Source: a virus. Taken from it: 64,000 bases of DNA. Numbering within the stretch: the first letter of the stretch is position 1; the number at the start of each line of letters is the position of its first letter. Made by a program: the position numbers and the translations under genes. Below are positions 2,773-39,960 of the stretch, in pieces. The notes beneath the pieces are model-generated. The model saw nothing but the letters and a program-made list of their open reading frames with translations. It was not told the origin of the DNA and did no database searches. The stretch is taken from IMG/VR virus record IMGVR_UViG_3300025141_000029, positions 1 to 64,000 of that record; one strand, written 5' to 3'.

Positions 2773-2800
2773 ACTATAGGAACCAAAAGATTCTAGTCAA
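2773..2800 (-). promoter_or_regulatory. Sigma70-like promoter for tRNA-Ile
   Basis: TTGACT, 16 bases, TATAGT on the minus strand. The -35 box includes the TGA stop codon of the last array gene (ending at 2797). It gives the tRNA and the following gene their own transcription start behind the long accessory operon. Confidence 0.75.
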
Positions 2801-2979
2801 GACTCAGAAACAAGAAGTAATGTTTCTTCTCGTCGGCTGTGTTCCTCGCCTTCAAGTATATATAATCTAACGGATTTTCCATCTCGCTCACTTTCAATAA
2901 CCTCAACAATCATCTTGGCTGGATAGATTTCTTTGTAGTTTGAGTAACTTGAAGGTATTACTAAATCACCGACTTTCAC
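2797..2979 (-). CDS. Array member 18 (last), SH3-like small protein
   Basis: 60 residues beginning VKVGDLVIPSSYSNYKEIY at a GTG; a frame ATG four codons earlier exists, but the family start and the 14-base overlap with the preceding copy favour the GTG. It ends LLLVSES. Its stop codon lies within the -35 box of the tRNA-Ile promoter. The central strand IVEVIES matches the GIVLE position of other copies. Confidence 0.75.
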   Translation of the reverse strand: MKVGDLVIPSSYSNYKEIYPAKMIVEVIESERDGKSVRLYILEGEEHSRREETLLLVSES

Positions 2980-3139
2980 TGATAACCTCACAGCCTGATT
3001 GGACCATCCAACGAACTTCTCCGCTCTGGTCGATGGTTCTTACAGTCCCGCCTTCGTTGTTAATAAACAAAACAACAGCAATGCTCACAGGCGGGGGCAG
3101 CTTCAGAGGATTATACCTAATCAAATCACCGACTTTCAT
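2966..3139 (-). CDS. Array member 17, SH3-like small protein
   Basis: 57 residues from ATG: MKVGDLIRYNPLKLPPPVSI, then IAVVLFINNEGG, VRWMV and CEVISESR. It overlaps both neighbours by 14 bases. A longer reading from an ATG five codons upstream is possible, but the family start at MKVGD is preferred. Confidence 0.8.
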   Translation of the reverse strand: MKVGDLIRYNPLKLPPPVSIAVVLFINNEGGTVRTIDQSGEVRWMVQSGCEVISESR

Positions 3140-3305
3140 AGTGATATTCCACATCGTCAGATTCTATTCCTTCGATTTCTCCATCGGACCACAAACATTC
3201 GAGCCAAAAGTTTTGTTTTAAGGGTCCGTGGCCGGCAGGTATACCTGAAACATCCAGAATGATAGCAAACTCGCCACCACACTTTATCAAATCACCGACT
3301 TTCAT
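3126..3305 (-). CDS. Array member 16, SH3-like small protein
   Basis: 59 residues: MKVGDLIKCGGEFAIILDV, then FWLECLWSDGEIEGIESDD and a final ESR. The WSDGEIEG segment resembles the matching segment of member 15 (WCDDIGEVEG). It overlaps both neighbours by 14 bases. Confidence 0.8.
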   Translation of the reverse strand: MKVGDLIKCGGEFAIILDVSGIPAGHGPLKQNFWLECLWSDGEIEGIESDDVEYHYESR

Positions 3306-3458
3306 TTACAATCTCCAGTTCTCCCGCATAAAAGTCGACGCCTTCAACTTCCCCAATATCATCGCACCACTTCACCAAGGCTCGGTGGAGGGCTGATTGT
3401 TGACAATCAGCCCAAATGTATTTGAAGGAATGTGTCTTACCAGATCACCTGCTTTCAC
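3292..3458 (-). pseudogene. Array member 15, frameshifted copy
   Basis: From the GTG at 3458 the frame reads MKAGDLVRHIPSNTFGLIV then NNQPSTEPW and stops. The family's second half (ALVKWCDDIGEVEG, then ELEIVNESR, stop at 3292) is intact in another frame, one base back (-1 or +2). The break is within a few codons of a 24-base palindrome at 3390-3413. Both 14-base junctions with the neighbours are kept. It is either a recently broken gene or one read by -1 ribosomal frameshifting; I see no classical slippery heptamer, so breakage is more likely. Confidence 0.75.
3390..3413. repeat. 24-base palindrome in the frameshifted array copy
   Basis: Arms of 11 bases (GGGCTGATTGT and its exact reverse complement) are separated by TG. 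No other array copy I read carries it. It sits at the point where the reading frame changes. Confidence 0.85.
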
Positions 3459-3624
3459 TGACTAACTCCATACGAGGCTCAACCGTCCACACGGGAACCT
3501 CTCTTTCAGAAGTCAGAGATTGAACTTTCCACCAGCGGTTGCCAAATCCATAAGTTTTGTCTCTCTCAATTAAAATGTAATAACCATCTTGTTCAAGTAA
3601 AGTAACTAAATCGCCGGCCTTCAT
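3445..3624 (-). CDS. Array member 14, SH3-like small protein
   Basis: 59 residues: MKAGDLVTLLEQDGYYILIE, then RWWKVQSL, VWTVEP and RMELVSESR. Four-base ATGA overlap with the gene upstream and a 14-base overlap with the frameshifted copy downstream. The MKAGD variant start is shared with member 15, suggesting these two are close duplicates. Confidence 0.8.
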   Translation of the reverse strand: MKAGDLVTLLEQDGYYILIERDKTYGFGNRWWKVQSLTSEREVPVWTVEPRMELVSESR

Positions 3625-3851
3625 ATTTTTCTACCAGCACCTACGATTGAGCTATCGCTTTCTTCAATCACTTCATTTGCCGGAATCCAATGAACTTTGT
3701 AATAAGGAATATCGGCCAACCTCAAATCAATATCTATTACGATTCCTATTTCCCAATCGTTTCCCTGTTCAGGCGTCCAGCCCTCTTCATTGAGGAGGTT
3801 CTTTTCTTCGTTGGCAGAAAGCTTAACTAAATCACCAACTTCAAACTTCAC
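3621..3851 (-). CDS. Array member 13, longer SH3-like small protein
   Basis: 76 residues from a GTG: VKFEVGDLVKLSANEE, then WEIGIVIDIDL, YYKVHWIPANEVIEES and a non-family tail SSIVGAGRKI. The open frame extends further upstream inside the preceding gene, but the family start and an 11-base overlap point to the GTG at 3851. It carries an insertion of about 15 residues between the first two strands. Confidence 0.75.
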   Translation of the reverse strand: MKFEVGDLVKLSANEEKNLLNEEGWTPEQGNDWEIGIVIDIDLRLADIPYYKVHWIPANEVIEESDSSIVGAGRKI

Positions 3852-4047
3852 CGGAAACAACCTCAATGCATTGTGATGGTGTCCAGGCTTCTTGTGGGCC
3901 ATATTCATCAGAAAACCAATAAATCCAAGCGCCTTCGCTGCTGCCTTCTCCATGCTTGACGTCATGCATGCGCAAAATAATCCCCGTGTGACCGTGGAAA
4001 TAAGCTCGGCCGGACCTCGCCCACCTGACCAAATCACCCGGCTTCAT
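3841..4047 (-). CDS. Array member 12, SH3-like small protein
   Basis: 68 residues: MKPGDLVRWARSGRAYFHGH, TGIILRMHDV, GAWIYWFSDEYG, QCIEVVSGEV. The most Trp/Gly-rich copy. It overlaps the preceding copy by 14 bases and the next by 11. Confidence 0.8.
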   Translation of the reverse strand: MKPGDLVRWARSGRAYFHGHTGIILRMHDVKHGEGSSEGAWIYWFSDEYGPQEAWTPSQCIEVVSGEV

Positions 4048-4252
4048 TTAGAACCTCCAGCCAGCCGGCGAGCATACAATCTCGGTCCTCACCTTCTTTT
4101 GCTAGGTGTGCCGGTGAAACCCAACGAACCCACCAGCGATGAACACGCTGCTTGTGTTGCCGGTATACAATACCGATCGGGTAGTATTGTTCGCCTCCAA
4201 TATCGTCTGGACCCCATGCGTCGACACTTCTTACCAAGTTACCTACTTTCAT
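4034..4252 (-). CDS. Array member 11, SH3-like small protein
   Basis: 72 residues: MKVGNLVRSVDAWGPDDIGG, PIGIVYRQH, RWWVRWVSPAHL, AGWLEVLNEAG. MKVGN replaces MKVGD. It starts at the base where the unrelated 51-residue gene stops (TAATG). Confidence 0.8.
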   Translation of the reverse strand: MKVGNLVRSVDAWGPDDIGGEQYYPIGIVYRQHKQRVHRWWVRWVSPAHLAKEGEDRDCMLAGWLEVLNEAG

Positions 4253-4407
4253 TACCTACAACCATCGCAGCGGCTATCAGTCCATCGTTTGATTGCTGCA
4301 TCGATGACTTCCATGACGGCCTTGAAATCCTCTTCATCGTCTAGACACCGTGCGAGACACTGCTGTTCAAGCATGTGCTTAATCTCTTTTGCCAGTTCAT
4401 GATTCAC
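4252..4407 (-). CDS. Unrelated 51-residue gene inside the array
   Basis: From a GTG with a GGAG Shine-Dalgarno it reads VNHELAKEIKHMLEQQCLAR, CLDDEEDFKAVMEVIDAAIK, RWTDSRCDGCR. It is all-helical with five cysteines and bears no resemblance to the beta-rich array family. It overlaps the preceding copy by 11 bases and the next by 1, so it has been inserted without breaking coupling. Function unknown. Confidence 0.65.
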   Translation of the reverse strand: MNHELAKEIKHMLEQQCLARCLDDEEDFKAVMEVIDAAIKRWTDSRCDGCR

Positions 4408-4588
4408 TTATCAACTCCAACTGTTCTTCTTCGTGAAAGGAAAAATCGTCGTTCCATTGAACCCTATACGACTTCCAGGCTCCAATACCGTTGGCGCCTT
4501 CCTCAATAAATGTAATAACGCCTGGTCCATAGTAAACACCGGTCCAGCGCCAGTTTTCCCTAAGTAAAACAATATCACCGACTTTCAT
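4397..4588 (-). CDS. Array member 10, SH3-like small protein
   Basis: 63 residues: MKVGDIVLLRENWRWTGVYY, GPGVITFIEEG, YRVQWNDDFSFHEEE, LELISES. It is very close to member 3 (5636-5824), sharing VYYGPGVIT and WNDDFSFH, so these two, separated by six units, descend from a recent duplication. Four-base overlap with the preceding copy. Confidence 0.85.
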   Translation of the reverse strand: MKVGDIVLLRENWRWTGVYYGPGVITFIEEGANGIGAWKSYRVQWNDDFSFHEEEQLELISES

Positions 4589-4770
4589 ACTTTCTCCAGC
4601 CAGCTACAACTGTTCCAAGATACCTCTGCAATACCCTCCGGAGGGTTTAACCAGTGTATCAAGTATCCTACTCGCCAGTCGTCAACTCGCGGTTGGTCGA
4701 CCTCAAGTATAATCCCCAAATCGCAACGGACGTTGGCGTAGGTGTTTTTTACTAAATCACCGACTTTCAT
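4585..4770 (-). CDS. Array member 9, SH3-like small protein
   Basis: 61 residues: MKVGDLVKNTYANVRCDLGI, ILEVDQPRVDDW, VGYLIHWLNPPEG, CSWLEKV. It lacks the SESR tail and therefore joins the next copy by a 4-base rather than a 14-base overlap. Confidence 0.8.
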   Translation of the reverse strand: MKVGDLVKNTYANVRCDLGIILEVDQPRVDDWRVGYLIHWLNPPEGIAEVSWNSCSWLEKV

Positions 4771-4930
4771 CGGCTACCTCCAACATAGATGCTTGATAAT
4801 AGCCGGTTGCCGTGTACTTACAACACCATACGATTTTGAAGGAACCTCCGACATGCGTGTGAATAGCTATACCGAGAGGGCCTGAATCAATCGTATGACT
4901 CTTAAACTTTACCAAATCACCAACTTTCAC
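4757..4930 (-). CDS. Array member 8, SH3-like small protein
   Basis: 57 residues from GTG: VKVGDLVKFKSHTIDSGPLG, IAIHTHVGGSFKIVWCCKY, MLEVADESR. 14-base overlaps on both sides. Confidence 0.8.
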   Translation of the reverse strand: MKVGDLVKFKSHTIDSGPLGIAIHTHVGGSFKIVWCCKYTATGYYQASMLEVADESR

Positions 4931-5105
4931 TTACAACCTCGATAAACTTCTCGGCCATCTTGCCGCCGGAATGAAAGTTCGCTTTGCATACGGGTGCCAG
5001 AATCCATGTTCGTGAATAACCCCAAGAACTGTCGTCTGCTCCTTCGACTATAATATAGTAACCAATCTTCGCGGGTAAAACTTGTACGAGATCACCGACT
5101 TTCAC
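4917..5105 (-). CDS. Array member 7, SH3-like small protein
   Basis: 62 residues from GTG: VKVGDLVQVLPAKIGYYIIV, RTWILAPVCKANF, KFIEVVSESW. The final residue is W rather than R because the stop shifts one codon, but the 14-base junction is kept. Confidence 0.8.
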   Translation of the reverse strand: MKVGDLVQVLPAKIGYYIIVEGADDSSWGYSRTWILAPVCKANFHSGGKMAEKFIEVVSESW

Positions 5106-5280
5106 TTACCATCTCCAGTTCGCATTCATGCCACCATCCAATCTCTTGTCTCCAGCAGACCTCGTAGTATAATATACCGTACTCATCTTCATGAGAGTCT
5201 AAAACAATACCGTATTTGAAATCAACGCCAAGCACATTGACCACGCCGGAACGTAATCGAACAACATCACCGGTCTTCAC
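5092..5280 (-). CDS. Array member 6, SH3-like small protein
   Basis: 62 residues from GTG: VKTGDVVRLRSGVVNVLGVD, YGIVLDSHEDEYG, YYEVCWRQEIGWW, LEMVSESR. Here MKTGD replaces MKVGD. 14-base overlaps on both sides. Confidence 0.8.
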   Translation of the reverse strand: MKTGDVVRLRSGVVNVLGVDFKYGIVLDSHEDEYGILYYEVCWRQEIGWWHECELEMVSESR

Positions 5281-5440
5281 TAATTACCTTTAGATATTCA
5301 ACGTCATAGTCGCTAGTGCGTCCAGTGTGCGGCCAACAAATAGAAACATAAGTACAGCCAGGAACCTTTGTCGGCTCTGATATCACAATCGCGATAGTGA
5401 CGGGGTCGCCCCGATATAATACCAAATCACCAACTTTCAT
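5267..5440 (-). CDS. Array member 5, SH3-like small protein
   Basis: 57 residues: MKVGDLVLYRGDPVTIAIVI, TYVSICWPHTGR, YLKVISEDR. It begins on the last base of the previous stop codon (TAATG) and overlaps the next copy by 14 bases. Confidence 0.8.
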   Translation of the reverse strand: MKVGDLVLYRGDPVTIAIVISEPTKVPGCTYVSICWPHTGRTSDYDVEYLKVISEDR

Positions 5441-5649
5441 TATAACACCACGATTGCGCCGTCGGCGACGTCTGCTAAACTAAACCAAGAGCCGCCAAGT
5501 TGTCCATCAATAATATCGCAGCCCCACACGACTCTCCATTCTGGTCCGGTGTTGTCGACAGACGGTCTGATTTCGAGTACGTGGCCGATGCCACTGTCGA
5601 TAGGGTCGTTCTTGTGTGCAACATATTGTACCAAATCACCTACTTTCAC
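5440..5649 (-). CDS. Array member 4, SH3-like small protein
   Basis: 69 residues from GTG: VKVGDLVQYVAHKNDPIDSG, IGHVLEIRPSVDN, EWRVVWGCDIIDG, and a divergent tail SLADVADGAIVVL without SESR. 14-base overlap with the preceding copy, 1-base with the next. Confidence 0.8.
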   Translation of the reverse strand: MKVGDLVQYVAHKNDPIDSGIGHVLEIRPSVDNTGPEWRVVWGCDIIDGQLGGSWFSLADVADGAIVVL

Positions 5650-5824
5650 TGATTAGCTCCAATTCTTCTGTTCCGTGGAAGGAAAAATCGTCGTTCCAAT
5701 GTACTCTGTGAGAGACAAACCCCTCTTCGGGGTAGTCAGTTATAGATGTAATAACGCCAGGACCATAGTAAACATATTTTATCTGGTACTCTTCTTTAAG
5801 CAGAACTATATCACCGACTTTCAT
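5636..5824 (-). CDS. Array member 3, SH3-like small protein
   Basis: 62 residues: MKVGDIVLLKEEYQIKYVYY, GPGVITSITDYPEEG, HRVHWNDDFSFHGTEE, LELISESR. It is near-duplicate of member 10. 14-base overlaps on both sides. Confidence 0.85.
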   Translation of the reverse strand: MKVGDIVLLKEEYQIKYVYYGPGVITSITDYPEEGFVSHRVHWNDDFSFHGTEELELISESR

Positions 5825-5993
5825 TTACGACCTCCAAATGGTCTGGTCGACCAAACAACGATGCGCCATCCTTCCACAAGATTAGCACGCCATGGCGTAC
5901 AGTAGCACAACGTATCACGATGCCTATTTGATCTTGACGTTCATACGTCGACCAAAATCCACCAGCAACCTTTACCAAATCACCGACTTTCAT
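5811..5993 (-). CDS. Array member 2, SH3-like small protein
   Basis: 60 residues: MKVGDLVKVAGGFWSTYERQ, DQIGIVIRCATVRHG, VLILWKDGASLFG, HLEVVNESR. Four-base ATGA overlap with member 1 and 14-base overlap with member 3. Confidence 0.85.
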   Translation of the reverse strand: MKVGDLVKVAGGFWSTYERQDQIGIVIRCATVRHGVLILWKDGASLFGRPDHLEVVNESR

Positions 5994-6199
5994 GCTCGGC
6001 TCATGACATGGAACAGAGCATCTTCAGTACAAAAATCTTCAGAAGTCCAGGGATCAGACAATATCTGGCCTGAACTCCAGGCAACCTCGATCATAAGATA
6101 ACATTCATCATGGTAGCATTTTAACACAATGCCGACGTCGCCATCTCTGCAACCAATAATATCACCCGTCTTCGGGGTTTCGTAGTATAATGTATTCAT
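5990..6199 (-). CDS. Array member 1, SH3-like protein with relocated start
   Basis: 69 residues: MNTLYYETPKTGDIIGCRDG, VGIVLKCYHDECY, MIEVAWSSGQIL. The family start position (before KTGD) is CCG, not a start codon; the ATG eight codons upstream, inside the GIY-YIG gene, is the available start. The KTGD codons overlap the GIY-YIG stop codon in the same phase as the SESR/MKVGD junctions elsewhere. Confidence 0.75.
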   Translation of the reverse strand: MNTLYYETPKTGDIIGCRDGDVGIVLKCYHDECYLMIEVAWSSGQILSDPWTSEDFCTEDALFHVMSRA

Positions 6200-6431
6200 C
6201 TTTCTGTTTTCGCGTCAGTTGTTTGAACCTATATTCGGCTTTTTGAGCAGAAGATCTATCTTTGAAGGTTGTCCAATAAACCACCTCAACAGGTCTCCTC
6301 GTCTTCGTATATTTTGCGCCCTTTGGCGAAGTATTGTGCTCATTAAGACGTCGCTTAACGTCGGTTGTCACACCAGTATAGTAAGAACCATCGGAGCAGA
6401 GTAAAACGTATAAAAACCAGTGTTTAATCAA
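6162..6431 (-). CDS. GIY-YIG nuclease-domain protein (UPF0213-like)
   Basis: About 89 residues from the TTG at 6431 (LIKHWFLYVLLC); no ATG fits, and the open frame upstream only reads into the protease gene. The GIY-YIG core is clear: FLYVLLCSDGSYYTGVTTD, then VKRRLNEH with the conserved Arg, GAKYTKTRRPVEVVY, and AEYRFKQL at the position of the catalytic Glu. Size and motifs match the stand-alone UPF0213/YhbQ-type proteins, whose targets are unclear. It overlaps the serine-protease gene by 8 bases and array member 1 by 38, so it leads into the array and might have helped spread it, which is speculation. Confidence 0.8.
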   Translation of the reverse strand: MIKHWFLYVLLCSDGSYYTGVTTDVKRRLNEHNTSPKGAKYTKTRRPVEVVYWTTFKDRSSAQKAEYRFKQLTRKQKDEYIILRNPEDG

Positions 6432-7104
6432 GGGAAAAGATAAAATTTCGCAAAGATCTGCGAGAGGGCGAGATAACAATATGATGAAAGCTCTTGTTGA
6501 TTCGCGAAACAAGACCAATGATTTCACCAGCTATGTTAAGAATCGGGGCTCCAGATGAGCCGGGGTAAGCCGGAATGGTGAAAACAGACGTTAAACTATC
6601 GCCGCCAGCAAAATGTCCAGAAACAACCGGAATTAAACCTTTTCCGGCTACTCCATCGGGGGCCATCATACTCCACACCACTTTACCTCGCGAGGGGCTC
6701 GACGTCGCTATAGGTATCGGATCGGCTAACAGGCTCCGGCCGGTCGTCATTAAACAAATGTCCCTTGAAGGATGAATATCCAATCCAATTGCGGCATATA
6801 CATTATCTTTGTCATCGTGAACAGTCACAAGAACTTTATCAAGAACTTCAGATTGTGCTGCGTTATCAAGCATTTTACGAACCCCAGCACAAATATGCCC
6901 AGCCGTCAAAATTTTGTTTGACCTTACAACAGTTCCAGAGCCAAAGCCGGCTTCCAGTACACAAGTAATACAATTTGCCTTATAGCGTTTCACCTTAATT
7001 TGTACAAAAGAATCGAATGGAATATTTGGCTTTGTGTCCACATACACGCGAGTGCAGGAGCAAAAAATTATTGAGCATAATACAATTAAAAACTTATTCT
7101 TCAT
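6424..7104 (-). CDS. Trypsin-like serine protease, predicted lipoprotein
   Basis: 226 residues from the ATG giving MKNKFLIVLCSIIFCSCTR, a signal peptide ending in a lipobox-like FCSC. The chymotrypsin-fold triad is visible: His in ILTAGHIC (about residue 70), Asp in HPSRDICLM, Ser in AYPGSSGAPIL with GEIIGLVS after it. It should be exported and cleave protein in the host envelope. It overlaps the MazG-like gene by 11 bases. A secreted trypsin-family enzyme is unusual in a tailed phage; roles in superinfection exclusion or envelope modification are only guesses. Confidence 0.85.
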   Translation of the reverse strand: MKNKFLIVLCSIIFCSCTRVYVDTKPNIPFDSFVQIKVKRYKANCITCVLEAGFGSGTVVRSNKILTAGHICAGVRKMLDNAAQSEVLDKVLVTVHDDKDNVYAAIGLDIHPSRDICLMTTGRSLLADPIPIATSSPSRGKVVWSMMAPDGVAGKGLIPVVSGHFAGGDSLTSVFTIPAYPGSSGAPILNIAGEIIGLVSRINKSFHHIVISPSRRSLRNFIFSLD

Positions 7105-8835: not shown

Positions 8836-9822
8836 TTATATGCTATTTTTACAATCAGAAAAGAAAATTTCTATATTACTAGCTAGTTGCGAAGTTATAT
8901 AACTACACATTTCTTTTTCGTTTTTTAAATCAATAAGCTGTGAATTGTGATATATTTTCCATTGTCCCAATTCTCGCAATACATCCATTTTGCTGATAAC
9001 AAGTTTATTAACAGAATTAAGGGCAATATTTTTTTGTAACTCGTCTAAGTTAAGCCAATTACATTGGCGCGGACGGCCGGTGGTCGCGCCGTATTCGTCG
9101 CCTAAATCACGCAGAGCTTGAAACACCGGATCGGATGGCTCGAAAGATTTGGCTCCAACATAGGTCTCATAAATCTTTGCGACACCCCATACATCACGAA
9201 GCCATCGTGGACTAACGGCATTCAAAAATACGCCGCCTAAACCACAGTGACTAGAAGTGACATATGGATAGTCGCCCCAATCAATATCCAAACCGAATCC
9301 TTGTGCTCCTTCGCATAATACTTTAATTGTTTTATCATTGTGAAATTCCTCGTATAAGTCTATGATATAAGATCGTAATGAAGCTACCTCGTCGGCCCGC
9401 ATTCCTTTGCGGGCATACTTATCGCGATAAGCTGGTCCGTTACCACGACGCGTGGTACCAATCTTATTTTCTGCTGCTTCTTCAAGAAGATGCCCTTCGG
9501 TAATTACATGAGCATTCTTCGCAATAAAAAGCGTACCATCTAATTTAATTCCAGCATCTTGTAGCTCTCTTACTTCTTCAAAAAAATGTTTAGGGCTGAT
9601 TACACATCCAGGTCCAATAATTGATTTAACCCCATAAAATACGCCGGCAGGAATATGATGTGTTACAAATTTCCTACCTTCGTGATAAATTGTGTGACCA
9701 GCGTTACAGCCTCCATTAAATCTCAAAACATGAGTATAATTTTTGTTCTTGGATAAGTAGTGTGTAACTTTTCCTTTGGCCTCGTCGCCATGTTGAATTC
9801 CTAATACTACGTCAGCTAACAT
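8836..9822 (-). CDS. purA: Adenylosuccinate synthetase
   Basis: 328 residues, shorter than the roughly 430 of bacterial PurA. It joins IMP and aspartate with GTP to make adenylosuccinate. Visible: GIQHGDEAKGK (P-loop with the catalytic Asp kept), NGGCNAGHTI, GPGCVISP, GTTRRGNGPAYRDK, CEGAQGFGLDIDWGDYPYVT and TTGRPRQCNWLNL. The phage enzyme of aminoadenine DNA synthesis (PurZ) has Ser in place of the P-loop Asp, so this looks like a PurA-type activity. With the IMPDH/GMPR-family gene it gives the phage control over the IMP branch point. It lies just downstream of tRNA-Lys. Confidence 0.9.
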   Translation of the reverse strand: MLADVVLGIQHGDEAKGKVTHYLSKNKNYTHVLRFNGGCNAGHTIYHEGRKFVTHHIPAGVFYGVKSIIGPGCVISPKHFFEEVRELQDAGIKLDGTLFIAKNAHVITEGHLLEEAAENKIGTTRRGNGPAYRDKYARKGMRADEVASLRSYIIDLYEEFHNDKTIKVLCEGAQGFGLDIDWGDYPYVTSSHCGLGGVFLNAVSPRWLRDVWGVAKIYETYVGAKSFEPSDPVFQALRDLGDEYGATTGRPRQCNWLNLDELQKNIALNSVNKLVISKMDVLRELGQWKIYHNSQLIDLKNEKEMCSYITSQLASNIEIFFSDCKNSI

Positions 9823-9940: not shown

Positions 9941-10606
9941 CTAATCAAGAATAGTTTTCGCTATATTTTTGACTGCCATCCTTTCGTTGCGAGACAAATC
10001 CCTGTAAGTCTCTAAGCCCTCGGTAAAAGTAAATGGCCGGTTATTAACTCTTGTCATAAACTCTGCTTCTTCGCCCAGCTTGATATTGCCAACCTGTACA
10101 GTTTGTCCTAAGCCTGGAAATTCACTGTAATTTGTGCCATACAAGTGTGCGCCTTCACCACCAGCGGGGATAATTAAAACAGAATCTTGACAAAATTTCT
10201 TGCCGAGCATTATAATATTATCAATAAAATCAGAAGCTTCTGGTAAATTAACAACTATATAACTTTCCTCTCCAACTTCCACGGCTTGTGGGGTATCAAA
10301 ATCTTCAACGTAGTTGCCGCCAACTCTTGTAACTCCATAATTTAATGATAGAAGTGTGGCCTTAAGATCTCGATTTCTTTGCTTGTTGACGCGAAGTTGG
10401 ACGCCTGTTCTGCCACCTTTTCCCTTTACTTCGGGTGGTAAATCCTCTCCGCCTCTCAAGGCATCGTCTACACATTTAGACATATCGTTGGGATCGTTAC
10501 GAAAAGCTGTCAATATTGCCGTCTCTGTCGAGTAAATAAACTTATGTACTCTTGAAAGCGAAGATTCATTGAGAAATGATTTCCATTTACCGAGCAAATC
10601 TTTCAT
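9941..10606 (-). CDS. Hypothetical protein with WKSFLNE N-terminal motif
   Basis: 221 residues. The N-terminus MKDLLGKWKSFLNESSLSR resembles that of the gene two upstream (MKLLFKNWKKFLLQED), suggesting a shared N-terminal tag. The middle (LNYGVTRVGGNYVED, then EESYIVVNLP and QDSVLIIPAGGEGAHLYG) looks like the fold of DUF3293-type proteins, a tentative match. Function unknown. Confidence 0.65.
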   Translation of the reverse strand: MKDLLGKWKSFLNESSLSRVHKFIYSTETAILTAFRNDPNDMSKCVDDALRGGEDLPPEVKGKGGRTGVQLRVNKQRNRDLKATLLSLNYGVTRVGGNYVEDFDTPQAVEVGEESYIVVNLPEASDFIDNIIMLGKKFCQDSVLIIPAGGEGAHLYGTNYSEFPGLGQTVQVGNIKLGEEAEFMTRVNNRPFTFTEGLETYRDLSRNERMAVKNIAKTILD

Positions 10607-10878
10607 AGATTTCTCTCTGCATATTCAGTACACTTCTTTAGAGAATCAACTTCCCGACTTGGTTCAACAACCACCAGTTCATCAATTCGATATTCATGAT
10701 AATAGTGATCGCCTCCGCGCATTTCGTTTATAAAATCCATCGCACTTTCATACTTCTCATCGTTAAACCATTTTACTTTTGCAAACGACCAATTGTTCTT
10801 TCTTGCTTCCAGATTTGTTACCACGCCATAACGTCGTATGCCTTGATAATTCTGAAATACAATATCGCTAACTTTCAC
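10603..10878 (-). CDS. Dispersed member of the MKVGD small-protein family
   Basis: 91 residues from GTG: VKVSDIVFQNYQGIRRYGVV, then FAKVKWFNDEKYES and IDELVVVEPS, with a charged helical extension of about 20 residues. It has the MKVGD start, GVV and V-x-W features of the array. Its start overlaps the preceding gene's LSES-stop in the same two-frame arrangement as the array junctions (11 bases), and its end overlaps the next start by ATGA. Confidence 0.75.
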   Translation of the reverse strand: MKVSDIVFQNYQGIRRYGVVTNLEARKNNWSFAKVKWFNDEKYESAMDFINEMRGGDHYYHEYRIDELVVVEPSREVDSLKKCTEYAERNL

Positions 10879-17523: not shown

Positions 17524-19107
17524 TTATGCCTCCACTATTGCATAGTTTGTTATTATTAATATTGATGCGACCGAAACAGCATTTGTCAAAGCAATTCGAG
17601 CGACCTTTGTCGGGTCAACAATACCTGCCTCAATCATATCAACAATCTCACCATTTTTAAAGTTATAACCACAATTGCCCACTTCAGATTCAATCATGCT
17701 GACGACAATATCGGCCGACTCGCCGGCATTTGTGGCCATCTGTCTGATCGGCTCATATGCGGCTTTCTTGAGAATTTCAACACCTAGATGCTGGTCCTCG
17801 TTGTCTACTTCGACTTCTAAATCTTCTATTGCTCGTACAAAAGCCACTCCGCCGCCGGGAAGAATTCCCTCTTCCTGTGCTGACTTGATTGCCTCAAGGG
17901 CATCTTCAATTCGATGCTTCTTTTCAATCATTTCAACTTCTGTGGCAGCACCGATTCGAATTACAGCAACGCCGCTGGCAAGTCTAGTTATCCTTTCTTG
18001 CATCCTTTCGCAATCTTGTATGTTATCGTTTGCTTTAATTTGTTCCTTGAGGTCTTCGATAGTTTCCTCGACCTTTTCCCAATCTGCATTACCGCCGATA
18101 AAAGTAGTATTATACTTCAGAATATCAGCTTTCTTACATTTACCAAAATCAACTAACTTAACCTCGGATAGTTTTTTACCAGATTCACGATTAACAAATG
18201 TACCGCCGACAGAGAGTGCCAAATCATTAAGAATTTTGCGACGTTCAGTACCATATCGCGGTGCTTTTACAGCAACGATCTTCATTGTGCCCCTCACTGT
18301 ATTCATGATAAGGGCTGCTAGGGCCTGTCCTTCAATATCTTCAGCAACAATTACAAGAGGTTTGCTCTCTCTGGCTACCAATTCTAGTATTGGAAGGATG
18401 TCCTGTACCTTGTCAATTTTGTGATCAGTCACCAAGATGTAGGGATCATCGTATTCAACCGATCCTCTCCTCTGGTTTGTAACAAAGGCATTCGCAAGAA
18501 AACCAGAATCAAAATGAAAACCTTCGGTTACGTCTAGGGTCGTTTCAAATGATTTGCCATCCTCTACGCTAATTGAACCATCATGGCCGGCCTGCTCAAC
18601 AGCCATTGAAATAAGTTTACCAATCGACACATCGTTGTTCGCAGAAATGGCCGCTATGTGTTCTATGTCTTCTTGAGACTCAATGGGACGTGATATATCT
18701 TGTAGCTTAACTACAATCGCTTCTAGCGCCTTATCCATACCTCGTTTAAGCTCCACAGGAGAGACACCAGTAGAAATATACTTCTGAGCTGTGTTAAGTA
18801 TTGCTCGGGCTAATATTGTCGAAGTGGTTGTCCCATCGCCAGCTAAATTTGCAGTCTGCGAAGCAGCTTGTTTGATTAGCTGTGCTCCAGCATTTTCAAA
18901 CGGATCGTCAAAATCAACAAATTTGGCAACTGTTACGCCATCTTTTGTGACTATCGGATTTAATCCTTTTTTATGTAAGAGAACATTTCGTCCCTTTGGC
19001 CCAAGTGTTGAACCAACAACATCTGCTAATTTATTTACCCCATCTAATATTTGGGTCTGTAATCTGTTCCCGCTCTGATATTGCTTTGACGTTATTTCTT
19101 GTGTCAT
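17524..19107 (-). CDS. groEL: GroEL-type chaperonin
   Basis: 527 residues, near the usual 545. Visible: STLGPKGRNVLLHKK, DGVTVAK, AGDGTTTSTILARAIL (ATP site), the apical-domain segment through PRYGTERRKILNDLA, and AATEVEMIEKKHRIEDALEA with the hydrolytic Asp region, then EEGILPGGGVAF. The flexible GGM tail is missing; it ends IITNYAIVEA. It would form a folding chamber for phage proteins such as the capsid protein. A phage GroES-like protein is encoded at 33681-33959. Confidence 0.95.
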   Translation of the reverse strand: MTQEITSKQYQSGNRLQTQILDGVNKLADVVGSTLGPKGRNVLLHKKGLNPIVTKDGVTVAKFVDFDDPFENAGAQLIKQAASQTANLAGDGTTTSTILARAILNTAQKYISTGVSPVELKRGMDKALEAIVVKLQDISRPIESQEDIEHIAAISANNDVSIGKLISMAVEQAGHDGSISVEDGKSFETTLDVTEGFHFDSGFLANAFVTNQRRGSVEYDDPYILVTDHKIDKVQDILPILELVARESKPLVIVAEDIEGQALAALIMNTVRGTMKIVAVKAPRYGTERRKILNDLALSVGGTFVNRESGKKLSEVKLVDFGKCKKADILKYNTTFIGGNADWEKVEETIEDLKEQIKANDNIQDCERMQERITRLASGVAVIRIGAATEVEMIEKKHRIEDALEAIKSAQEEGILPGGGVAFVRAIEDLEVEVDNEDQHLGVEILKKAAYEPIRQMATNAGESADIVVSMIESEVGNCGYNFKNGEIVDMIEAGIVDPTKVARIALTNAVSVASILIITNYAIVEA

Positions 19108-23753: not shown

Positions 23754-24094
23754 AATTCTGGAAATTCCTCCGCAATAATATCGAATATATCTTCAATTTC
23801 ATTTTCATTAAGAGCGAATTGTTTTTTAGTTTCGTTATATTTTTTGAGACCTTTTACAATTTGTTTGCGTTTTTGAACTCCCTGCGTCACATGCTTCTCT
23901 TTATATTCATCTAAATATTTGGTTATGTGTTCGTCTTTCTCTAGGTAGCCAGTGATCATTGCGCGAAAAAAATGAGACTGTGTAAATCCGTCTAATTGTA
24001 ATCTTATTTTTAAATCAGCCTGTCGTTTTGGAGAATCCCAAAACATTAATTTTTTACGATCATCGGGCCTAGGCTGCGCCGGATCTCTAGCCAT
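23750..24094 (-). CDS. Hypothetical DNA-binding-like protein
   Basis: 114 residues. The segment QADLKIRLQLDGFTQSHFFR then AMITGYLEKD has the strand-helix-helix pattern of ribbon-helix-helix repressors (LKIRL strand, TQSHFFRAMI helix). Proteins of this pattern occur in T4-like marine phages. It lies between the sigma-like gene and the IMPDH/GMPR gene, sharing one base with each junction. Confidence 0.6.
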   Translation of the reverse strand: MARDPAQPRPDDRKKLMFWDSPKRQADLKIRLQLDGFTQSHFFRAMITGYLEKDEHITKYLDEYKEKHVTQGVQKRKQIVKGLKKYNETKKQFALNENEIEDIFDIIAEEFPEL

Positions 24095-25116
24095 TAACTC
24101 CTCCTCAAAATGTGGGTGGAACTTTCGGATTGACCAGAATATGTCTGTCGGATGAAAGTTGCTTTACATCGAAGCTCTTGCAAGCTTCGTACGCCTGAGT
24201 AAGAGAGACCACTGCGTATACCCCCAGCAAGATCTTTAAGAATAGCATTAACACTGCCTTTATACGGAACGGTAGTCGAAATTCCTTCCGGTGCGGAAGA
24301 TTTGCCCCGCCAATCATTTTGCGCTTCGGACGATGCCATGCCCCTGTAGACTTTGTATTTTTTGCCTGAGTTTGCTGTGAATATTTCACCAGGAGATTCC
24401 TTGGTACCAGCGAGCAAAGAGCCAATCATAACAAAATCTGCGCCAGCTGCCAATGATTTAATTATATCGCCGGAAGTTTTTATTCCCCCATCGGCAATAA
24501 TTTTTGTATCATATTCACTTTTCGCGCAGTCCATAATGCTTTGTAATGTTGGTATGCCATGGCCAGAAACTAGGCGCGTAGAGCATATAGAGCCTCCTCC
24601 GATGCCAACACGAATTGAATCGGCACCCCAGGAGGCCAAAGCATCAAATCCTTCAAGAGTGGCAACATTCCCAGCCATAATATGAACTTCATCCCCAAAA
24701 CGATCTTTGAGTGTTTTGAGGCAACGTTCCATCATAATATGATGTCCATGAGCAACGTCAACACACAATACTTGTACACCAACCATCTTCAATGCCATGG
24801 CGCGTTCTTCAAAATCACCAGTCATTCCAATCGCCGCACCGACTTTTAATTTACCATTCTCATAAAGTACCCGGGCAGCAATTCTCACTTGTTCGGGAAT
24901 TTCATTATATCGATGAACAATTCCCATCCCACCGCACCTTGACATTGCAATTGCCATTTTATCTTCTGTGATGGTATCCATCGGGCTTGATATAATTGGT
25001 AATTTAAAACTTAAACTTTCATCTAATTTGCTACCAATGTCAACCTGATTTCTACTTTCGATATTGCTGTATTTTGGCACCAACAATACATCATCATATG
25101 ATAATACTTCTTTCAC
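24094..25116 (-). CDS. IMP dehydrogenase/GMP reductase family enzyme
   Basis: 340 residues, without the CBS domains of cellular IMPDH. TIM-barrel motifs: SYDDVLLVPKYSNIESR, ISSPMDTIT, GIGGGSICSTR with the catalytic Cys, IIADGGIKTSGDIIKSLAAG, and YRGMASSEAQ, whose Ser-Ser-Glu recalls GMP reductase, while EGISTTVPYKGSV and GGIRSGLSY suit both. It converts between IMP and guanine nucleotides; which direction is uncertain. Partner of the phage PurA at the IMP branch point. Confidence 0.88.
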   Translation of the reverse strand: MKEVLSYDDVLLVPKYSNIESRNQVDIGSKLDESLSFKLPIISSPMDTITEDKMAIAMSRCGGMGIVHRYNEIPEQVRIAARVLYENGKLKVGAAIGMTGDFEERAMALKMVGVQVLCVDVAHGHHIMMERCLKTLKDRFGDEVHIMAGNVATLEGFDALASWGADSIRVGIGGGSICSTRLVSGHGIPTLQSIMDCAKSEYDTKIIADGGIKTSGDIIKSLAAGADFVMIGSLLAGTKESPGEIFTANSGKKYKVYRGMASSEAQNDWRGKSSAPEGISTTVPYKGSVNAILKDLAGGIRSGLSYSGVRSLQELRCKATFIRQTYSGQSESSTHILRRS

Positions 25117-29940: not shown

Positions 29941-29968
29941 ATTATAATAATGAAAAACTAAGAGTAAA
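29941..29968 (-). promoter_or_regulatory. Sigma70-like promoter of dnaE
   Basis: TTTACT, 16 bases, TATAAT on the minus strand; the -35 lies in the last codons of the cysteine synthase gene. Confidence 0.7.
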
Positions 29969-30818
29969 GAGATAAATATCTTTCACCGCGATCATGAAGA
30001 AAGGTGATAATCGCTCCGGTACCTTTGTGAGTTTTAGCACACTGTTCAGCCGCCAAGATATTAGCACCGGAGCTAATGCCAACCAATAAGCCATTTGAGG
30101 ACAATTCTCTAGCCTTCTTCATCGCGTCGTCGGTCTTAATATAAACAATTTCATCAATAAAATCAGGATCTACTAGATAATCTCCGCCGTCTCCAATGCC
30201 CTGTATACCATGATTTAAGGCATCTTCGGCCGGCTTGACCTGTATGATCCTGAGATCTTTATTAATTCGCTTAAGGGCCCTTCCCACGCCCATTATGGTG
30301 CCTCCAGTTCCTGCACCGCAAATCAATACTTCTGGCTCTCTCTGGCGGTCGATAAAAACCTGTCTTATAATTTCACGAGCAGTTGTTTTTTCGTGACATT
30401 CGATGTTTAGTGGGTTCTCAAATTGATTTAGAGACCACCAATTGTTATTCTCTTGAACGGATCGATCCCTCAACGCAATTGCGCCTGGAAAATCATTAGG
30501 ACCAACTTCAATGATTTCTGCTCCATACAATCTCATGAGCTGTTTCCGCTCTGCAGACATGTTGGAGGGCATTATGATTTTTACTTTGTAGCCTTTTATA
30601 GCACCAAGCATAGCGAGAGCAATACCAGTGTTGCCGCTCGTTGCTTCAACCAAAACAGTGTTTTCATTAATTAAACCTTCTTTCTCGGCTTGAGATATTA
30701 TATATAGTACAATACGATCTTTAATACTTCCTGACAAATTAAAAGTTTCCAACTTAGCAAAAATATTAGACTTTAATTCAACTATTGGTGTGTTACCAAT
30801 AAGATCTTCAATGTTCAT
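29958..30818 (-). CDS. cysK: Cysteine synthase (O-acetylserine sulfhydrylase)
   Basis: 286 residues, fold type II PLP enzyme. Visible: GNTPIVEL, FNLSGSIKDRIV with the PLP-binding Lys, EATSGNTGIALAM, CGAGTGGTIMGVGRALK phosphate-binding loop, GISSGANI, and DRGERYLSLYS at the end as in CysK/CysM. It makes cysteine from O-acetylserine (or phosphoserine) and sulfide. It is a metabolic gene rarely seen in phages, here co-directional with nucleotide and replication genes. Confidence 0.92.
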   Translation of the reverse strand: MNIEDLIGNTPIVELKSNIFAKLETFNLSGSIKDRIVLYIISQAEKEGLINENTVLVEATSGNTGIALAMLGAIKGYKVKIIMPSNMSAERKQLMRLYGAEIIEVGPNDFPGAIALRDRSVQENNNWWSLNQFENPLNIECHEKTTAREIIRQVFIDRQREPEVLICGAGTGGTIMGVGRALKRINKDLRIIQVKPAEDALNHGIQGIGDGGDYLVDPDFIDEIVYIKTDDAMKKARELSSNGLLVGISSGANILAAEQCAKTHKGTGAIITFLHDRGERYLSLYS

Positions 30819-38871: not shown

Positions 38872-39960
38872 TTATGCTTTATTTTTATCCATCGAATGCC
38901 AACCCTGTACAACAACCTCGTCCATTATCTGGAGGATTCTTGATCTAAACTTTTCATTCTTAATTTTCTCGTGCCACTTGGTAAATTGAAACTTTTCTGA
39001 CGTTCCATCTTCAAATACCAGAGTATACCATGCGCCGTTACGTTGTAGGTGTTCAGATGGCTGAATCGCATCAAACCAACTTTCTTCATCACATATTCCA
39101 ACGTTGCCGCCCCAAAGAATCTTAAATGTACATTCTCGACCTAGGGATCCAAAACGTGACTTTTTAATTCGCGCCTTGACTTCAGAACCAATCTTGTAGC
39201 CATATTCATCGGTGACATATGATGCTTTCGCTTTTCGTACAGTAAGCCAAATTCGTAAAGAATATGAATATGGTAACGCTTTGCCTCCAGGTGTGACATA
39301 TGGTTCTGTCATCAAAGAAGCACGATCGGTTGTAATATTTGTCTTTAACTGGTTCAAAGCCAGCAAAGTACATTGACCATTAGCGAGCGGTATCGTCATC
39401 TTTTTCATTGCCTTAGATAAAAGACGTGCCTTATAGCCAATAGACGATTGCGGATCAAAATCCTCATCCAACATCTTTCTAGTTGGCGTTTGAGCAACAC
39501 TATCCCAGACAAACAAAATTTTCTTATCAGTTTCGCCCAAGAGCATTTCCATGGTCTCATACACAAATTCAACAGTTTTTGCTTGCGTATAGACAATATC
39601 GGCAACATCACAGCCGGCCTGCTCTAAAAATGCCGGATCTAGCGCTGATTCTGAATCAAAATAAACAACCGAGATTCCCATCTTTTGAGCATTTGCAGCA
39701 ATTTGAGCTGCCATATAAGATTTACCTGATCCTTCTAGGCCAGCTAATTCTGTAATTTTACCAACGGGAACTCCCCCATTTACGTTGCCCACACAAACAA
39801 TTTTGTTGAGCCATGTTGATCCGGTTGGAATCCATTCTTTGACTTCTGTTGGATTGTCCTTCGTGAGATCATAAGCGAGAACTTCGCCTGCCTTTTTATT
39901 GATTAAGTCTCTTAAACTTGTCGTATCTAATCTGCCATTTGTATTCTTTTTCTTGGCCAT
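38872..39960 (-). CDS. uvsX: UvsX/RecA-like recombinase
   Basis: 362 residues. Walker A ELAGLEGSGKSYMAAQIAAN (about residue 73), Walker B KKILFVWDSVAQTPTRKM, and LALNQLKTNITTDRASLMTE then TPGGKALPYSYSLRIWL matching L2-type loop and core of the RecA fold. Catalyses strand exchange for recombination-dependent replication and repair. Confidence 0.93.
   Translation of the reverse strand: MAKKKNTNGRLDTTSLRDLINKKAGEVLAYDLTKDNPTEVKEWIPTGSTWLNKIVCVGNVNGGVPVGKITELAGLEGSGKSYMAAQIAANAQKMGISVVYFDSESALDPAFLEQAGCDVADIVYTQAKTVEFVYETMEMLLGETDKKILFVWDSVAQTPTRKMLDEDFDPQSSIGYKARLLSKAMKKMTIPLANGQCTLLALNQLKTNITTDRASLMTEPYVTPGGKALPYSYSLRIWLTVRKAKASYVTDEYGYKIGSEVKARIKKSRFGSLGRECTFKILWGGNVGICDEESWFDAIQPSEHLQRNGAWYTLVFEDGTSEKFQFTKWHEKIKNEKFRSRILQIMDEVVVQGWHSMDKNKA

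Follow-up and report, generated by a model that had tools for sequence, protein, structure and literature searches.

An array of small SH3-like genes in a large phage and its probable exchange, gene by gene, at a short coding junction

By what route does a virus come to carry a tandem array of small genes of one family, and what lets the content of such an array vary from one phage to the next? The question is raised by positions 2797-6199 of IMG/VR virus record IMGVR_UViG_3300025141_000029, of which positions 1 to 64,000 were analysed here as a single stretch of 64,000 nucleotides (hereafter, the window). We consider it probable that this array is a set of single-gene cassettes, and that phages acquire, lose and exchange these among one another through recombination at a short junction in coding sequence. 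We also lean, if somewhat cautiously, towards the broader view that large marine phages share a pool of thousands of SH3-like modules traded singly via this junction, in an integrase-free analogue of the integron that captures unrelated genes as well.

The array is encoded on the minus strand (transcribed in the sense 6199 to 2797) and contains 17 intact family genes of 57-76 amino acids (aa) each, one frameshifted member and one gene outside the family. A previous sequence-only reading of this DNA had claimed an array of small genes at this place, which we can confirm; its figure of about 18 members of one family is borne out by the 17 intact copies and the frameshifted one, but it had not set apart the unrelated gene, x11. 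When a profile built from the members was searched against the whole 157,733-bp virus record, all of the 17 intact copies were recovered and none was found outside 2797-6199. Also, m3 and m10, previously singled out as a close pair, are indeed 63-67% identical in amino acids. The array adjoins a tRNA gene. Its features, some of which are compared with the corresponding locus of a related phage (L138), are as follows (ORF, open reading frame; pLDDT, predicted local distance difference test).

2797-6199, minus: whole cassette array (ORF reading and member profile)
6162-6449, minus: GIY-YIG nuclease gene overlapping the array start (homology; relatives stand beside or inside arrays elsewhere)
5990-6199, minus: m1, first member, 69 aa, diverged N-terminus (profile, E 7.9e-14)
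5811-5993, minus: m2, 60 aa (profile)
5803-5836, minus: m2/m3 junction, a 34-bp repeat which in L138 bounds an extra cassette (10287-10320 and 10519-10552; sequence comparison)
5636-5824, minus: m3, 62 aa, closely related to m10 (profile)
5440-5649, minus: m4, 69 aa (profile)
5267-5440, minus: m5, 57 aa (profile)
5092-5280, minus: m6, 62 aa, predicted SH3-like barrel (profile; AlphaFold2, pLDDT 90)
4917-5105, minus: m7, 62 aa (profile)
4757-4930, minus: m8, 57 aa (profile)
4585-4770, minus: m9, 61 aa (profile)
4397-4588, minus: m10, 63 aa, closely related to m3; missing in L138 together with x11 (profile)
4252-4407, minus: x11, non-family gene, 51 aa, overlapping m10 by 11 nucleotides (ORF reading)
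4034-4252, minus: m12, 72 aa (profile)
3841-4047, minus: m13, 68 aa (profile)
3621-3851, minus: m14, 76 aa, GTG start (profile)
3445-3624, minus: m15, 59 aa (profile)
3302-3458, minus: m16, frameshifted member (ORF reading)
3126-3305, minus: m17, 59 aa, predicted small beta-barrel (profile; AlphaFold2, pLDDT 85)
2966-3139, minus: m18, 57 aa (profile)
2797-2979, minus: m19, last member, 60 aa, GTG start (profile)

The genes are joined by a sequence with the consensus TGGAGGTnATcaRTGAAAGTCGGTGATTTGGT (about 20-34 bp), in which stop and start usually overlap by exactly 14 nucleotides (nt). Here a single run of nucleotides, read in two frames, gives both the LEVISESR at the C-terminus of one gene and the MKVGDL with which the next one begins. 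TGGAGGT serves as the Shine-Dalgarno sequence and RTG as the start codon, and GTGAAAGTCGGTGA codes for both VKVGD and ESR-stop. The window holds 16 such motifs (with two mismatches at most), 15 of them inside the array, where 0.07 would be expected. The exact 14-nt overlap is present at 10 of the 18 array junctions, or 11 when the second half of the broken m16 is counted, compared with 2 of the 44 tight gene pairs elsewhere in the window. We then scanned viral contigs with the junction DNA pattern, which gave at least 120 stretches; over all loci, the exact overlap occurs at 462 of 712 tight junctions. It is still present at 293 of 499 after those matching the search pattern are removed, and relatives that were retrieved via flanking genes and not via the motif show this layout too. 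A C-terminal motif of the LEVISES type is furthermore found in 75% of the genes with the 14-nt overlap versus 3-14% of the others. The LEVISESR end, earlier taken as a signature of the family, is therefore not a protein signature but is coded by the junction, being the by-product, in another frame, of the Shine-Dalgarno sequence and start codon that serve the next gene. Its SESR part is forced by the overlap, while the LEV part, which corresponds to the Shine-Dalgarno sequence, is not. GGT-GAT codons are favoured also in the non-overlapping genes (59%), and part of the junction conservation is thus due to the start region itself.

Comparison of related phages revealed strong variation in both the number and the order of the genes. 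In L138, the flanking protein is identical to that of the window and the DNA is 99.5% identical up to the array, but the array differs by whole genes: L138 has extra cassettes after m2 and m7, lacks m10 and x11, and carries three other cassettes in place of m16-m18. The array blocks shared by the two are 95-99.5% identical and break at junctions, and at the sequence level junction repeats of 12-34 bp flank both insertions (those following m2 and m7) as well as the missing m10/x11 segment. With a flanking protein 88% identical to that of the window, L139 has 17 members in and around its array, and L140 (84%) has only two members nearby. More generally, in 33 locus pairs with 199 similarity ends, from which mutually duplicate loci had been removed, 145 ends fall at junctions (-20 to +30 of a family start; 25% expected). 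The left ends are concentrated at -16 to +2 (67 of 106; 9.5% expected) and the right ends at +11 to +30 (54 of 93; 10% expected). When cassettes with different neighbours were compared, the excess identity extended to about the stop codon where the upstream cassette was shared, and set in at about the start codon where the downstream one was, which places the switch point within the 14-nt overlap. Among orthologues at 90-97% identity, the upstream neighbour differs in 18 of 22.

The counterpart of m19 is the last array gene also in L138, L139 and L142 and in the first array of L143. In m16, a TGA stands in frame after 28 codons and the second half, ending LEIVNESR, lies in another frame; the member may be in decay, may undergo programmed frameshifting or may reflect an assembly error, and L138 has other cassettes at its position. 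Outside the array, a gene for 91 aa at 10603-10878 (minus strand), which is also present in L138 and L141, is a possible remote relative of the family, an uncertain assignment made with one profile only.

The arrays contain genes of other kinds, for which we collected 97 non-family single-gene insertions between family members. Twenty of these end in E[SNGA]R, compared with 35 of 3,525 background ORFs, and eleven have a [KQRE]xGD tag at the N-terminus, a few of the eleven resembling distant barrel relatives rather than captures. Examples are a GIY-YIG gene ending VINESR and a DUF2061 gene starting VKVGD; homologues of x11 in other arrays start with MKPGD (L143) or end with NESR (L095). Unrelated genes captured into arrays thus carry junction-coded ends. 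A probable GTP cyclohydrolase II-like gene, identified by eye, lies inside an array in L135 (DQKQ01000147.1) and ends IISESR. GIY-YIG nucleases of the type overlapping the array start are present in 8 of 128 loci, and seven of the eight occurrences touch a family gene; a role as a general mobiliser was rejected, as so few loci possess one that it is not required.

How might cassettes be exchanged at such a site? The junction does three jobs at once: it encodes how the upstream protein terminates, it equips the following gene with a Shine-Dalgarno sequence and a start codon, and it encodes the first residues (MKVGDLV) of that gene. Because the same sequence stands at every gene boundary, a crossover inside the 14-nt overlap would leave both genes intact and insert the newcomer into the operon complete with its ribosome-binding site; the overlap may also couple translation along the operon. 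The catalyst would be the ordinary homologous or annealing recombination of phages during co-infection, for which the record offers one candidate.

38872-39960, minus: RecA/UvsX-type recombinase, candidate catalyst of junction exchange (homology)

The length of the junction is near the reported minima of exact pairing, 23-27 bp for Red-beta and 31-34 bp for RecA (PMC3945230). Several points nonetheless weigh against exchange at the junction: some shared junctions span just 12-19 bp and are under the usual RecA minimum, about a third of tight junctions have no 14-nt overlap, most loci were retrieved by the junction motif and the set is hence biased towards that overlap, the similarity ends are partly non-independent as one event may count in both loci, and the evidence is all comparative, no recombination event having been seen directly.

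A different reading of the same junctions is that they are kept for translation alone, as a ribosome-binding site with coupled re-initiation, and that swaps occur by illegitimate recombination anywhere, followed by selection for intact genes, as in classical phage mosaicism. Indeed, 88% of the cases with the -14 arrangement have a Shine-Dalgarno-like sequence ahead of the start, and selection for intact genes would likewise put breakpoints at gene ends. This reading is nonetheless improbable in our view, since it does not account for breakpoints falling within the approximately 14 nt common to two overlapping genes, for insertions flanked by direct junction repeats, or for unrelated genes with VKVGD and NESR ends, which would not be expected from random joining. 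Movement of the cassettes by a site-specific recombinase, as in integrons, would in turn fit an oriented array with one gene and one site per unit and a freely varying order, but hardly deserves credence: no tyrosine recombinase (PF00589) was found in the 157.7-kb record, which may be incomplete and was not searched for serine recombinases, while all of 14 control genomes gave a match. The idea that junctions contain a DNA hairpin or an attC site was also rejected, as they fold no better than shuffled sequences (mean z -0.11) and the attC core GTTRRRY occurs in 15% of junctions versus 10% of gene interiors. Taken together, the junction length, the RecA-type protein and the lack of a detected integrase or hairpin favour homologous or annealing recombination.

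The origin of the diversity within an array is a separate matter. The sequence-only reading had viewed the array as a diversification cassette, which can be taken to mean that genes duplicated in tandem on the spot and then diverged quickly, like gene families in an arms race, and the tandem layout of a single family with m3 and m10 as a close pair would be in line with this. We regard such an origin as very unlikely, because members of one array resemble one another no more than random draws from the pool: 13 within-locus pairs have at least 35% identity (15 expected), two within-array pairs have 60-80% (3.3 expected), and one has at least 80% (1.3 expected). Orthologues are present, furthermore, in other phages with different neighbours, and the ratio of nonsynonymous to synonymous substitution rates (dN/dS) is 0.13-0.19 for independent orthologue pairs across phages, with none of 150 pairs above 1, so that positive selection is rejected. 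The random-draw similarity and the low dN/dS suggest that the array samples old, conserved genes and is not the product of a local burst; in other words, its diversity appears to arise through exchange of such genes under purifying selection.

Exchange at the junction would draw on a large family. Iterated profiles on the loci gave at least 1,190 members, and at least 1,325 with later loci added; the junction layout is common to about 1,300 members in approximately 125 loci, nearly all of which are on uncultivated viral contigs, and 32 records hold 2 to 36 members each (E 0.001 or better). For the size of the pool, Chao1 gives a rough estimate of about 3,000 clusters (50% identity). Isolate phages queried with four members and one consensus gave nothing convincing; whole-record scans found no family match in T4, P-SSM2, HTVC008M, KVP40, S-PM2 and Morganella MP1, and one weak match each in phiPMW and phiA8-29. 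A stricter pattern applied to genomes of bacteria and archaea matched only four contigs, every one in metagenome-assembled genomes (MAGs). The chromosome of a candidate division WOR-3 MAG (L162; CP070664.1, 2136000-2151000) has a tight family array in which 14-nt overlaps join five genes. A terminase-like gene and genes for ATP synthase lie a few kb away, and the locus may be a prophage, a remnant or an assembly chimera. Neither eight proteins of the window (seven of them array members) nor 91 members of set A2 had a convincing match in Pfam or PHROGs, and a literature search for MKVGDLV and such arrays, with preprints and many subscription papers outside its reach, found no description. The family is thus missing from Pfam and PHROGs, and its arrays probably represent a variant of phage cassette shuffling not previously described in the literature searched.

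Each member of the family is predicted to be a small, stand-alone SH3-like barrel. The AlphaFold2 model of m6 is a small five-stranded beta-barrel (pLDDT 90.1) and that of m17 a small beta-barrel with four strands listed (pLDDT 84.7). Profile matches in the PDB are all marginal (best E 0.0017), with SH3-like domains at the top (MIB1, SPT5 KOW, HERC2, uL24 and PWWP), and Foldseek returns Tudor, KOW, PetP, NdhO and eS4 chains (query TM-score (TMq) 0.6-0.7, E 0.03 or higher) along with many small uncharacterised phage proteins. The shared SH3/KOW-type fold anticipated by the sequence-only reading is accordingly what the two models, the profiles and Foldseek agree upon. In predicted fold and faint profile similarity, the proteins are like known SH3-like, Tudor and KOW barrels (the KOW domains of SPT5 and NusG, the Tudor domains of 53BP1 and ERCC6L2, MIB/HERC2, PetP and NdhO), but with marginal sequence similarity and no Pfam membership, and they are single-domain and encoded in multi-gene arrays. 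Conserved positions are glycine, aspartate and residues of the hydrophobic core, in addition to the junction-coded ends; no conserved set of catalytic residues was found in the conservation analysis.

The proteins may, tentatively, be shuffled binders for counter-defence or host takeover, each with its own host target, so that shuffling would change the repertoire. A small binding fold that stands alone and shows no conserved catalytic residues, net charges from -8 to +6, purifying selection, the position beside a tRNA gene and the rarity of two similar copies within one array are all consistent with this idea. Small SH3-like barrels are, on the other hand, also accessory subunits of complexes such as PetP and NdhO, and no named anti-defence protein was matched in Pfam, PHROGs or the PDB. 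Among other genes of the phage, we noticed a GroEL-type chaperonin by sequence (17524-19107, minus strand, 527 aa), an adenylosuccinate synthetase of only 328 aa (8836-9822, minus strand; PF00709, E 8e-82), which looks PurA-like rather than PurZ-like because the aspartate of GDEAKGK is kept, an IMP dehydrogenase-like gene (24094-25116) and a cysteine synthase-like gene (29958-30818, minus strand).

In terms of known systems, the array works most like shuffling mediated by promoter early stem-loops (PeSL) and like integron arrays, but fails the defining features of both, namely the stem-loop of the former and the integrase and attC of the latter. PeSL in T4-type phages are short repeated intergenic regulatory sequences by which genes are reportedly shuffled (Arbiol et al. 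2010 and Comeau et al. 2014, via PMC4503421); in that account they share with our junction a short repeat at the shuffling site and breakpoints at the common motif, whereas a PeSL is a promoter with a stem-loop and the array junction is translational, lies inside overlapping coding sequence without a hairpin and, unlike PeSL, for the most part connects genes of a single protein family. Integron parts occur in phages (PMC9892861), and integron arrays resemble ours in consisting of oriented one-gene units, each with a shared site, that vary in content and order and are exchanged whole; integrons have an integrase and attC, however, while in the array no integrase and no attC-like fold was found and the site is the start/stop overlap. 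The Start-Associated Sequences of cluster K mycobacteriophages, 13 bp long (GGGATAGGAGCCC) and mostly in gaps of >50 bp (PMC3203893), are similarly short repeats with a Shine-Dalgarno core, placed where many small and mutually unrelated genes begin, but no gene exchange is reported for them as far as that account goes, and the array junction has a different consensus and sits in overlapping genes.

In conclusion, the family is very large and undescribed and is apparently rare in isolates, and the look of its members as single-domain binders makes screening for host or defence targets worthwhile; the junction provides a simple sequence handle to locate such arrays. If cassettes are indeed exchanged at the junction, phages would be able to swap single accessory genes without breaking the operon, with a translation signal doubling as the site of exchange.

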